NCBI RefSeq assembly: GCF_002975405.1
Contig: NZ_PCPS01000001.1
Span: 1 to 64,000 of the forward strand
Source of the DNA: Arthrobacter sp. MYb229
GTDB lineage: Bacteria; Actinomycetota; Actinomycetes; Actinomycetales; Micrococcaceae
Length of the DNA stretch: 64,000 nucleotides
Reading direction: 5' to 3'
Below are positions 291-3,472 of this stretch, piece after piece. The notes under the pieces were generated by a model, which saw only the letters and a program-made list of their open reading frames with translations, made no database searches and was not told the DNA's origin. The translations under genes were made by a program, and so were the position numbers. The first letter of the stretch is position 1. The number at the start of each line of letters is the position of its first letter.

Positions 291-1700
291 ATGGCGGTTA
301 GCGTATTCGATCTTTTCTCGGTTGGTATCGGACCTTCCTCCAGCCACACCGTGGGACCAATGCGTGCGGCGCACGCATTCATTGCCCAGGTAATTCGCGA
401 GGGGAAGATTGAGGCACTCGAATCCCTGCGCATCGACGTGTACGGTTCGCTTGCAGCGACCGGACGCGGGCACGGGACCTTCACCGCAATCATGCTCGGG
501 CTGGAGGGCTTCGAACCTGAAGCCATTCTCCCGGCACAGGTAGATGAGCGTCTGGCACAGATGGAATCCACCGGTATTCTTCGTCTCGGGTCTCAGCTGG
601 AGGTGCGCAAGGACCTGAATTACAAGGTCAGTGACATGATTCAGCACCCATTGACCGTCCTGCCCCGGCACACCAATGGCGTGAAGTTCATAGCCTTGGA
701 TGCAGCAGGTGCAGAACTGCTCAACGAAACGTTCTTCTCCGTCGGCGGCGGTTTCATTGTCCGCGAAGGCACCGAAGAACGTATCGAGAAGAATATCGAA
801 AAGAAGGTCAAGCAGCAGCCGTATCCCTTTACTACTGCTGCGCGCTTGATGGAACATACGCAGGATACCGGCAAGTCGATCGCCGAGATCATGATGGCCA
901 ATGAGGAGACCTTCCGTACCCGGGAGGAAATCCGCTCCGGCCTCGTCCATATCTACGAGGTCATGGAACAGTGCAAGGACGCGTCGCTCGAACGCACCGG
1001 CGTGCTTCCCGGAGGATTGAAGGTTCGCCGCCGCGCACCAGAATGGCACGAACGCTTGCGCAAGGAAGACAAGGATCGTGATCCGGTCTACTGGCAGGAA
1101 TGGATCAACCTCGTGGCGCTGGCCGTCAATGAAGAAAACGCTTCGGGCGGTCGCGTCGTGACGGCTCCAACCAACGGCGCCGCGGGCATCATCCCTGCCG
1201 TCCTGTTCTACGCAACCCACTACGCACCAGGGGCCAAGTACTGGAACGAAGAGGAAAAGAACGACGCCGTGGTTCGCTTCCTGCTCACCGCCGGTGCCGT
1301 TGGCGTGCTGTACAAGGAACAGGCCTCGATCTCCGGTGCCGAGGTCGGCTGCCAGGGCGAAGTTGGTTCGGCTTCGTCGATGGCGGCCGGTGGGCTAGCC
1401 GAAATTCTTGGCGGTACCCCAGCCCAGGTTGAAAACGCCGCGGAAATCGCCATGGAACATAACCTTGGACTCACCTGCGACCCGATCGGCGGCCTCGTGC
1501 AGATTCCATGTATTGAACGCAACGCGATTGCCGCTTCCAAGGCGGTGAACGCGGCCAAGATGGCGTTGATGGGCGACGGCGAACACCACGTCACCTTGGA
1601 CGAAGTCATCATCACCATGCGCGAGACGGGCAAGGATATGAGCGACAAGTACAAGGAAACCGCAATGGGCGGCCTGGCCGTCAACGTGGTTGAATGCTAA
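291..1700 (+). CDS. sdaA: L-serine ammonia-lyase, iron-sulfur dependent, single chain
   Basis: This 469-residue enzyme deaminates L-serine to pyruvate and ammonia using a [4Fe-4S] cluster. The N-terminal half carries the family hallmark [16 protein letters not shown]. The C-terminal half holds the cluster cysteines C354 (GCQGE), C396 (TCDPI) and C407 (PCIERN). The chain ends in cysteine (C469). All four positions are exactly 11 higher than those I recall for the Legionella enzyme (343, 385, 396, 458), whose terminal cysteine plugs the active site as the fourth iron ligand. It is a type II single-chain enzyme, with alpha and beta domains fused. The ATG has an AAGGA about 10 nt upstream. It follows glyA, so glycine-derived serine can flow to pyruvate. 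It probably has its own promoter, near the inverted repeat at 242-260. Confidence 0.95.
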
Positions 1701-1711
1701 TTCAGCACCCC

Positions 1712-1753
1712 GAAAAAGCGTGCGGCGGGCTCTTGCCCGCCGCACGCTTTTTC
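1712..1753 (+). terminator. Rho-independent terminator of sdaA
   Basis: A long perfect stem (19-nt arms at 1712-1730 and 1735-1753, containing AAAAAGCGTGCGGCGGGC and its complement) with a 4-nt TCTT loop ends in CTTTTTC. It is very strong and works in both orientations. Anything read from 1754 onward therefore needs a new promoter. Confidence 0.93.
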
Positions 1754-1866
1754 ATCTGACGGATGTGATCTTGTCGCCTACGTGGCAACTATTGCCCAAG
1801 ATGATGATAGAACTAAGGAGAAGGTTCTCGGGCGCACGCCCGAACGGATTCCAGGAGGTGAGCTAC

Positions 1867-1923
1867 ATGGACGACGGCTCTAGTCGATCTATGTCCACGC
1901 GACCTCCGCAAATCAGCCGCTGA
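1867..1923 (+). CDS. Candidate leader peptide upstream of mgtE (18 aa)
   Basis: An ATG at 1867 lies 8 nt after AGGAGG (1853-1858), one of the best SD matches in the window, and opens an 18-codon ORF, MDDGSSRSMSTRPPQISR, ending in TGA at 1921-1923. It has an acidic start (DD), a Pro-Pro pair and an arginine-rich second half. The E. coli mgtA leader peptide MgtL is of similar size (17 aa) and also has an acidic/proline start and an arginine-rich end; its translation stalls or aborts when Mg2+ is low. The SD of the short ORF can pair with ACCTCC at 1902-1907, inside the ORF. A control role is inference. Chance occurrence of a short ORF is possible, but a consensus SD at ideal spacing argues against it. 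Confidence 0.5.
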   Translation: MDDGSSRSMSTRPPQISR

Positions 1924-2024
1924 GCTACACGACAATTCCTATGCAGCGGTGAGTGAGCTTTGGAGAGCCGCGCTTCAAGTCCCTCCTCCACGCATGATTC
2001 CCGCCAACGATCACTGTTGGACTT

Positions 2025-2048
2025 TTCACCTAGATTTCGCTAGGTGAA
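2025..2048 (+). promoter_or_regulatory. Perfect 9-bp hairpin in the mgtE leader
   Basis: TTCACCTAG (2025-2033) pairs with CTAGGTGAA (2040-2048) around a 6-nt loop, 59 nt before the mgtE start. No T-run follows, so it is not a classical terminator. The weaker CCAAC/GTTGG stem at 2004-2020, followed by ACTTTT, lies just upstream. Confidence 0.5.
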
Positions 2049-2107: not shown

Positions 2108-3472
2108 ATGACCTTGCACATTTCCAAAGAAGTAGACTTCTCTACTATTTCAACGCTGATCCAGGAGCATCTCGGCTCACCGGATTTCAACGAGCTTGCC
2201 TTCCTGCTGCGCGGGCTGAGCTTGCAGCAAACCCTCCAGCAGCTGCACCGGCTGCCGGCCAAAGACATGGCAATCGTCTACCGGCTGCTCGCCAAGGATC
2301 AAGCCCTTGGTGTTTTCCAACGCCTGGATCCTGCCATCCAGGCCGAACTTGTTGGCAGCTTGCAGCAAGACGCGGTCAGCGAAACCTTTGCCGGGATGGC
2401 AACCGATGATCGCGTGGCGCTGCTCGATGAACTACCGGCGCAGCTTGCGGCGAAACTGCTGCGAGGCCTAGCCCCGGAGCAGCGCGAGGCGGTCAACGTC
2501 CTGCTCGGGTATCGCGCTGGGGTGGTGGGGCATCTGATGAATCCTTACTTTGTCACGACCCGCCCAGAGCTGAGCGTTGCCGAAAGCTTGCAACGGGTAC
2601 GAGGCCAATTGGATAGTGCAGAGAGTATCTACACGCTGGTAGTGACCGATGAAACGCGTCGCTTGCTCGGGGTAGTTTCACTGCGCGCACTGATGGCCGC
2701 CGACGAAGAACAGCGGGTATCGGAGCTGCTCACCGTTGGAGTAGGTCTGCGCGCCGAGCAGCCCGCAACCGAGGCGGCTCGCCAAGTGGTGCTTAGCAAG
2801 GAACTGCTGATCCCGGTGGTGGATTCCGAACAGCGGGTCGTCGGAGTCTTTAGCTCCACCGACGCGATCTCGATTCTGGCCGCAGCCGATGAGGAACGCG
2901 CTGCGCGCGGTTCCGGTGCCGAACCTCTGCGGCGTCCCTACCTGAGCACCGCGGTTGGTTCTCTGGTAAAAAGCCGCATTGTATGGCTGCTGGTGCTTGC
3001 CGTCGGGGCAAGCCTCACGGTCCAGGTGCTTTCGAGTTTCGAAGAAACCCTCGAGTCGATGGTGGTGCTCAGCTTATTCATTCCACTGATCGTCGGCATC
3101 GGCGGCAACACCGGAAACCAGGCGGCGACCACGGTCACCCGAGCAATTGCGATGGGCGATGTTCGCGTCGGGGACCTCGGGCGGGTCATGCTGCGTGAGC
3201 TCTGTGTGGGGCTCATCCTCGGATTATGCCTGGGAACCCTCGGATTTGCGCTGGCCGGATTCATCTTCGGCGGATCCATTGCGCTGATTATCGGGATCAC
3301 GCTGGTGGCACTGTGCACGATAGCGGCAGGAGTCGGCGGCATCATGCCGATTATCGGCAAATGGCTGAAAGTCGATCCTGCGGTCTTCTCGAATCCATTC
3401 ATCTCAACTTTTGTGGATGCCGCCGGGCTGATCGTGTACTTCAGCGTGGCAGTTGCCGTACTCGCAAACTAG
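2108..3472 (+). CDS. mgtE: MgtE-family magnesium transporter
   Basis: The 454-residue protein has the MgtE plan: an N-terminal helical superfamily domain (about residues 20-130, rich in LLRGL and DD repeats), a CBS pair (about 140-265), a connecting helix and five membrane helices (about 285-454). The membrane part contains FIPLIVGIGGNTGNQAATTVTRAIA, the stretch that lines the pore, and ends near NPFISTFVDAAGLIVYF. Family knowledge: MgtE is a Mg2+-gated channel whose cytosolic domains close it when internal Mg2+ is high. The length is normal. The ATG at 2108 lacks a good SD, which fits translation controlled by the structured leader upstream or a slightly different start. Confidence 0.93.
   Translation: MTLHISKEVDFSTISTLIQEHLGSPDFNELAFLLRGLSLQQTLQQLHRLPAKDMAIVYRLLAKDQALGVFQRLDPAIQAELVGSLQQDAVSETFAGMATDDRVALLDELPAQLAAKLLRGLAPEQREAVNVLLGYRAGVVGHLMNPYFVTTRPELSVAESLQRVRGQLDSAESIYTLVVTDETRRLLGVVSLRALMAADEEQRVSELLTVGVGLRAEQPATEAARQVVLSKELLIPVVDSEQRVVGVFSSTDAISILAAADEERAARGSGAEPLRRPYLSTAVGSLVKSRIVWLLVLAVGASLTVQVLSSFEETLESMVVLSLFIPLIVGIGGNTGNQAATTVTRAIAMGDVRVGDLGRVMLRELCVGLILGLCLGTLGFALAGFIFGGSIALIIGITLVALCTIAAGVGGIMPIIGKWLKVDPAVFSNPFISTFVDAAGLIVYFSVAVAVLAN

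Follow-up and report, generated by a model that had tools for sequence, protein, structure and literature searches.

A conserved short reading frame ahead of mgtE in Micrococcaceae that may serve as a magnesium gauge read by the ribosome

The gene for the magnesium channel MgtE in Arthrobacter sp. MYb229 is preceded by a short upstream open reading frame (uORF). Sequence comparison indicates that this uORF is real and conserved, its conservation being the strong evidence for it. It lies inside an RNA that, by predicted pairing, is probably able to fold in two competing ways, and translation of it may be how the cell gauges magnesium. With moderate confidence we favour a uORF-based attenuator of mgtE that works with the same sign as the enterobacterial leader peptide MgtL. 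What supports this reading is the uORF and its conservation, the pattern at its N terminus, compensating changes in one of the two RNA helices (helix B) among relatives, the linkage to mgtE and a link to the M-box riboswitch. The initial annotation of this DNA had proposed an MgtL-like leader peptide, but neither the RNA switch nor the connections to the M-box and to mycobacteria had been noticed there.

Layout of the mgtE leader

The leader lies between sdaA and mgtE in the window, by which we mean the whole 64,000-nucleotide stretch of DNA that was analysed. Its features are as follows.

291..1700, + strand: sdaA, L-serine ammonia-lyase, the upstream neighbour (TIGR00720, 655 bits)
1713..1752, + strand: long inverted repeat with a T run, presumed sdaA terminator (self-inverse match 1712-1753)
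1805..1814, + strand: TGATAGAACT, candidate promoter -10 region, largely conserved in the genus alignment
1829..1842, + strand: predicted CGGGC/GCCCG hairpin 5' of the uORF (centroid fold)
1853..1858, + strand: Shine-Dalgarno (SD) sequence of the uORF, AGGAGG (from the sequence)
1867..1923, + strand: uORF of 18 codons, MDDGSSRSMSTRPPQISR (from the sequence and its conservation)
1882..1891, + strand: AGTCGATCTA core inside the uORF, Ser-Arg-Ser codons, near-invariant as DNA
1898..1923, + strand: 3' half of the uORF, one strand of the predicted long-range helix B
1902..1907, + strand: ACCTCC inside the uORF, the anti-SD of helix A, which can pair with the uORF's own SD
1943..1973, + strand: partner strand of helix B, 3' of the uORF stop (predicted duplex and alignment)
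1962-1972, + strand: island GGAGAGCCGCG within that partner strand, GAGTTCGYRG-like in 12 of 16 genus loci
2025..2048, + strand: leader hairpin TTCACCTAG/CTAGGTGAA (predicted fold)
2108..3472, + strand: mgtE, magnesium channel, the gene presumed to be regulated (TIGR00400, 329.3 bits against a cut-off of 232.75)

The AGGAGG sequence at 8-nt spacing from an 18-codon ORF before mgtE, on which the initial annotation was built, is confirmed: the SD occupies 1853-1858, the ATG is at 1867 and the TGA ends at 1923. From the uORF stop to the mgtE ATG (2108) there are 184 nt. The upstream neighbour, sdaA, lies 5' of the uORF and mgtE in 15 of the 16 genus loci and was not within the fetched stretch in the remaining one (L004). 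The inverted repeat and T run after sdaA point to a separate promoter for mgtE, and this gene is probably transcribed from its own promoter. Scans of 1690-2200 found no intrinsic terminator, the 1713-1752 repeat going without a report there, and no consensus sigma-70 promoter pair. Where the window has the 2025-2048 hairpin, several relatives carry CACCC/GGGTG, as judged by eye.

Conservation of the uORF

We searched 18 genomes of the genus, among them the window's own, by BLAST with 1700-2120 as the query and obtained a match in 16, with a common core at about 1850-1906. All 16 matched loci keep the SD, the start codon (ATG or GTG), the frame and a stop after 17-22 codons; the peptide begins M-[DE]-[DG]-[GS]-[SP]-[SG]-R-S in each, and mgtE follows each time. 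Of the two genomes left, one (G005) has no BLAST match but does have mgtE and a diverged uORF, MDDSRSRSSYARCPFHLPLASL, recovered with a relaxed pattern; in the other (G013) mgtE was not found at E 1e-30 and the uORF is absent too. The uORF and mgtE are thus jointly present or absent in 18 of 18 genomes. Frameshifts and losses of the SD or start, named at the outset as what would count against the leader ORF, occur in none of the 17 mgtE-bearing genomes. The relatives with matching contigs that carry a name are Glutamicibacter or are filed as Arthrobacter sp.

The uORF extends beyond the genus. MgtE (E up to 1e-40) is present in 42 of 110 genomes of the family, spread over 15 of 32 genera. We fetched 39 mgtE upstream regions from the other genera, three further matches being left out, and found the uORF before mgtE in 18 of them, in seven genera, and not in 21. 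Its peptide always starts M-[DE]-[DEG]-[GSV]. The suggestion that mgtE has a conserved leader ORF in this family is supported, at 17 of 17 mgtE-bearing genomes of the genus and at 18 of 39 loci elsewhere in Micrococcaceae. The 16 own-genus and 18 other-genus uORF loci make up the 34-locus set used below. All 34 have GAGGTG at most 18 nt ahead of the start codon, and 32 have GGAGG there.

Short SD-led ORFs are common, so the sighting of this uORF is by itself weak: the 64-kb window holds 30 such ORFs of 12-40 codons on its two strands, and 8.4% of shuffled 420-nt leaders contain one. Nevertheless, we give practically no credence to a chance ORF, which is contradicted by conservation in eight genera and by the strict linkage to mgtE. 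Moreover, the N-terminal pattern M[DE][DEG][GSV] is found in one of the 30 window ORFs, namely the mgtE uORF, and in 0 of 3400 shuffled leaders, a lenient control in that the pattern was taken from the same loci.

Wider searches lead back to the same gene. A scan with one pattern over a genome collection described as covering 84,980 species returned 23 stretches, all in Micrococcaceae (Glutamicibacter, Paeniglutamicibacter, Arthrobacter and one Micrococcaceae MAG) and all before mgtE. The MgtE match begins 247-414 nt past the motif in 22 of the 23; the last is the G005 contig, for which mgtE was located in the genome. A covariance model (R1) run on 396 genomes of the order gave six strong matches, all already-known mgtE leaders. 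Its other 13 matches, weak and from outside the family, were rejected: the 3 kb fetched at each showed no MgtE, and most of them coincide with long reading frames. A strict DNA pattern run over 395 genomes of the family recovered the window's own genus alone and was too strict, the forms in other genera having diverged.

Outside the family, a similar uORF precedes mgtE in 11 of 49 fetched upstream regions (L075, L091, L132-L137, L143, L144 and L150). Seven of these belong to one family, f6 (L132-L137 and L091), and read MD[SP]DSRLC.. in exactly 14 codons; cmscan found no M-box at L091, the one f6 locus of the seven that was scanned. Groupings across families were made by eye and express likeness rather than established homology. 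Ser5 of the f6 uORFs alternates between AGT and TCT.

Two predicted, competing RNA helices

The sequence around the uORF can form two helices that share a strand. Helix A pairs the SD with an anti-SD inside the uORF, as GGAGGT/ACCTCC in the window and as GGTGAGC/GCTCACC, GGTGAGA/TCTCACC or GGTGTCC/GGACACT elsewhere. Against shuffled sequence it reaches p<0.1 in 10 of the 34 loci only, and the window itself gives p 0.17. Helix B pairs the 3' half of the uORF with the island beyond the stop codon; the best predicted duplex in the window has an energy of -28.4 kcal/mol and joins about 1898-1922 with 1944-1972.

Helix B shows compensating changes among relatives. In the 12 own-genus loci counted, out of 16, the share of cells that pair is 92.5%; dealing the islands among species lowers it to 86%, and 0 of 2000 such shuffles reach the observed value in a control that ignores relatedness. 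Two positions change in a compensating manner, U-A to C-G at one (6:6) and among A-U, G-C and G-U at the other (7:4:1). The uORF side of the helix is read in one frame in nine loci and in another in three. This count does not include the window (L001) and three further loci (L002, L003 and L011), in which the island has a different build. The choice of islands was made by eye or by motif, and at L038 the motif took an island other than the one chosen by eye.

In other genera, eleven loci gave 77.6% against 74.7% (1 of 2000; relatedness ignored). An enlarged set of 19 loci, 18 with the island motif and 16 of them distinct, gave 85.9% against 83.5% (37 of 5000; relatedness ignored) after three mostly unpaired outer pairs had been dropped, and slid controls did not exceed 46%. 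The island is absent at L046. When whole spacers are compared, a locus's own helix B partner ranks 1-3 of 34 in eight loci, with a median rank of 7.5 and a rank of 8th for the window; in nine further loci the own partner ranks 2-9 of 9.

As modelled, helices A and B are mutually exclusive, and neither would be able to form while a ribosome occupied codons 8-18. A start-codon hairpin proposed by RNAalifold (UGGA-GAC/GUC-UCUA) has no covariation above shuffles and was rejected, though it still stands in model R1. As to Rho-dependent termination in the leader, base composition shows C in excess of G in the uORF-mgtE spacer of 21 of the 34 loci only.

Constraint on the peptide and on the RNA

The uORFs were aligned and examined for synonymous bias, a check put forward with the initial annotation. 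Over codons 2-8 of the 34 loci, third positions vary most, with a mean entropy of 0.90 bits, the other two positions having 0.60 and 0.52. In genus g18 the same serine is written AGT at L047 and TCT at L048. The MgtL-like acidic start stood in part: residue 2 is D or E in 34 of 34 loci, and two acidic residues lie adjacent or one apart within the first ten residues of 28 uORFs, whereas the other six, from one subclade (MDGSS..), have a single acidic residue. Two other proposed likenesses to MgtL did not survive. The Pro-Pro pair occurs in 3 of 16 own-genus loci (L001-L003) and is not conserved, the stretch being constrained as RNA, in two reading frames, in 12 other own-genus loci; nor is the Arg-rich C terminus conserved in the genus alignment.

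The peptide is not the only thing under constraint. In the window's genus and at most loci of three other genera, AGTCGATCTA is near-invariant as DNA, third positions included, which argues that constraint on the RNA or at the codon level acts too. Could the switch then be RNA through and through, a leader that itself senses Mg2+ or another cue, with the peptide a by-product of constrained sequence? Besides AGTCGATCTA, the covariation of helix B in two reading frames and the seven f6 uORFs, in which codons 2-8 are without third-position variation, would suit such a switch. We nevertheless consider it improbable, since codons 2-5 of the 34 loci vary mostly at third positions and since g18 retains an MDDGPS start although AGTCGATCT has been lost. 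Codon choice in the M-box uORFs, described below, speaks in the same direction.

A proposed attenuator with the sign of MgtL

Reporting of Mg2+ by the ribosome is known from enterobacteria, through MgtL, a peptide of 17 residues by the initial annotation's account. An MgtE leader peptide conserved in soil Actinobacteria, with an M-box in some leaders and none in others, would show peptide-based sensing of this ion to be more widespread. According to the excerpted text of PMC11282234, ribosomes on MgtL drop off at acidic and proline codons when Mg2+ is low, which changes the RNA fold and hides a Rho terminator. As far as that excerpt goes, the window's uORF shares with MgtL of enterobacterial mgtA a short leader ORF before a Mg2+ transporter gene, acidic residues in the first codons and alternative RNA folds downstream, predicted in our case. 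It differs from the MgtL described there in having no EPDP motif, in its phylum and in the transporter that follows.

An MgtL-like mechanism is plausible. On balance, and at slightly better than even, we judge the uORF to be the translated, cis-acting leader ORF of a stand-alone attenuator that would control mgtE. Its 3' half would be the switch strand, which could pair either with the SD of the uORF itself, giving helix A, or with the island past the stop, giving helix B. A ribosome beyond about codon 8 would cover the switch strand and block both helices; if initiation failed, or if the ribosome dropped off within the first codons, the strand would be free. With enough Mg2+ the uORF would be read through, the leader would stay open and transcription would end early, most likely by Rho. 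In low Mg2+ the acidic start would cause drop-off through intrinsic destabilization of the ribosome, as in E. coli MgtL; helix B would then form and transcription would reach mgtE. We infer translation in vivo, Mg2+ as the signal, the drop-off, the part of Rho and the sign with which the switch works.

A link to the M-box and to mycobacterial uORFs

A riboswitch for magnesium, the M-box (ykoK, RF00380), ties this leader to others. The window (scanned with cmscan), 12 loci of the genus and five genomes of the genus all lack a match to it. Hits to rpsL_pseudo, rliI and Chloroflexi-1 in or near the leader, and to mir-5881 elsewhere, fell well short of the respective gathering scores, and we regard them as chance matches. 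In three relatives, by contrast, an M-box (129-135 bits) stands 5' of a uORF of the same kind, and mgtE follows (L035, L042 and L045).

The family as a whole has 20 M-boxes, in 16 of 110 genomes and in none of the five from the window's own genus. After 14 of the 20 comes a short uORF of this kind, three of them before mgtE; three other M-boxes run into an MgtC-like start, and the last three have no clear assignment. The other 11 (L113, L115, L116, L121 and L125-L131; 13-23 codons) are of the types MSSGDSSPS.., MSADSCSQ.., MSSGHxP.. and MSSGDKP.. Proteins encoded downstream of family M-boxes include an MgtA-type ATPase (L116 and L128), an Nramp protein (L126) and MgtC (L114). A survey of the class added 28 M-boxes from 15 of 246 genomes: 21 are followed by an MS[SPT][SGD].. 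uORF, a different SD-led ORF comes after four, and our script found none after three. Overall, 35 of the 48 M-boxes examined in family and class lead into a short uORF rich in Ser, Gly, Asp and Pro.

These uORFs bear on the purely RNA-based switch considered above. Proline at residue 7 is kept in 20 of the 21 class uORFs, with all four proline codons in use, and in 4 of the 11 family ones; Ser2 in the 11 family uORFs is encoded by AGT, TCA and TCC. Such varied codons for the same residue point to selection on the peptide. The acidic start does not carry over as well: in four of the 21 class uORFs and three of the 11 family ones, residues 2-7 contain neither D nor E, and together with the six single-acid mgtE uORFs these cases mean that a mechanism based on acidity does not fit all.

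Seventeen MS[SPT][SGD] uORFs come after M-boxes of a single family, f22, which we take to be the mycobacteria, and 16 of these have Pro7. This matches the conserved Pro7 of the Mycobacterium tuberculosis peptide Rv1805A, as reported in the available portion of D'Halluin et al. (RNA 2026, PMC12810186). In that portion, the pe20 M-box has uORF2/Rv1805A downstream of it and works through a triad of SD, anti-SD and anti-anti-SD with Rho termination; opening of the uORF's SD accompanies expression, and the Rho-dependent termination lies upstream. The peptide is there called mycobacteria-specific, with an unclear role, whereas similar uORFs, with likeness judged by eye, occur in other families here. 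On the same partial account, the window's uORF resembles Rv1805A in being short and SD-led and in its place after the promoter and ahead of a Mg2+-related operon or gene; the two further share conservation that is chiefly N-terminal, the lack of an intrinsic terminator and a competition among SD, anti-SD and anti-anti-SD, which in the window is predicted pairing only. It differs in having no M-box, Arg at residue 7, mgtE as its gene and an anti-anti-SD downstream of the uORF rather than at the aptamer, where the excerpt places that of Rv1805A. A literature search whose reach excluded most subscription journals and preprints turned up no description of such a uORF from bacteria other than mycobacteria.

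The pe20 leader suggests a switch of the opposite sign. Translation of the uORF would then turn mgtE on by keeping Rho off, and the triad would gate the uORF, with the aptamer lost or replaced in most Micrococcaceae mgtE leaders. The order M-box, uORF, mgtE at L035, L042 and L045 suits this reading, as do the pairing of SD with anti-SD and of anti-SD with the island, and the available part of PMC12810186 describes just such a triad with Rho termination. An SD-sequestering helix fits the pe20-like sign; the layout of the window's uORF, acidic at its start and with the switch strand at codons 10-18, agrees somewhat better with the MgtL-like one. With no aptamer in the window or in the genus loci and genomes searched, moreover, helix B would need another Mg2+ sensor, and we regard the pe20-like sign as somewhat unlikely.

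A stable small protein, acting on the transporter or elsewhere, is very improbable as the product of the uORF. The mycobacterial authors consider a small protein for Rv1805A in the accessible text of PMC12810186. Against it, conservation is limited to about the first eight residues, lengths range from 13 to 38 codons, and similar uORFs stand before genes for MgtE, MgtA-type ATPases and an Nramp protein. The last point argues for a role in cis, not for a partner of one protein complex, and this argument bears on the role of the mycobacterial M-box uORF as well.

We tentatively entertain a wider reading: that actinomycetes share a widespread kind of Mg2+ leader peptide (M, Ser or Asp, small residues, usually Asp, Ser, then Pro or Arg) which as a rule works under an M-box, that in Micrococcaceae most mgtE leaders with the uORF have lost the aptamer, and that the translating ribosome has become the Mg2+ sensor there. 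If this were true, a riboswitch would have been replaced by a nascent-chain sensor, and mycobacterial Rv1805A would have a cis-acting role. Leaders with and without an M-box form natural pairs for testing the contribution of the peptide.

Two further features of the M-box leaders can be recorded. Three family M-boxes (L112, L114 and L117) have no uORF of this kind after them and run into an MgtC-like start, as tested for L114 and judged by likeness for the others. Among the 21 class M-box uORFs (L162-L172, L178, L180-L183 and L185-L189), the serine at codon 2 is AGT in every one, and codon 6 is AGT in 20 and AAA in one, with no other serine codon.
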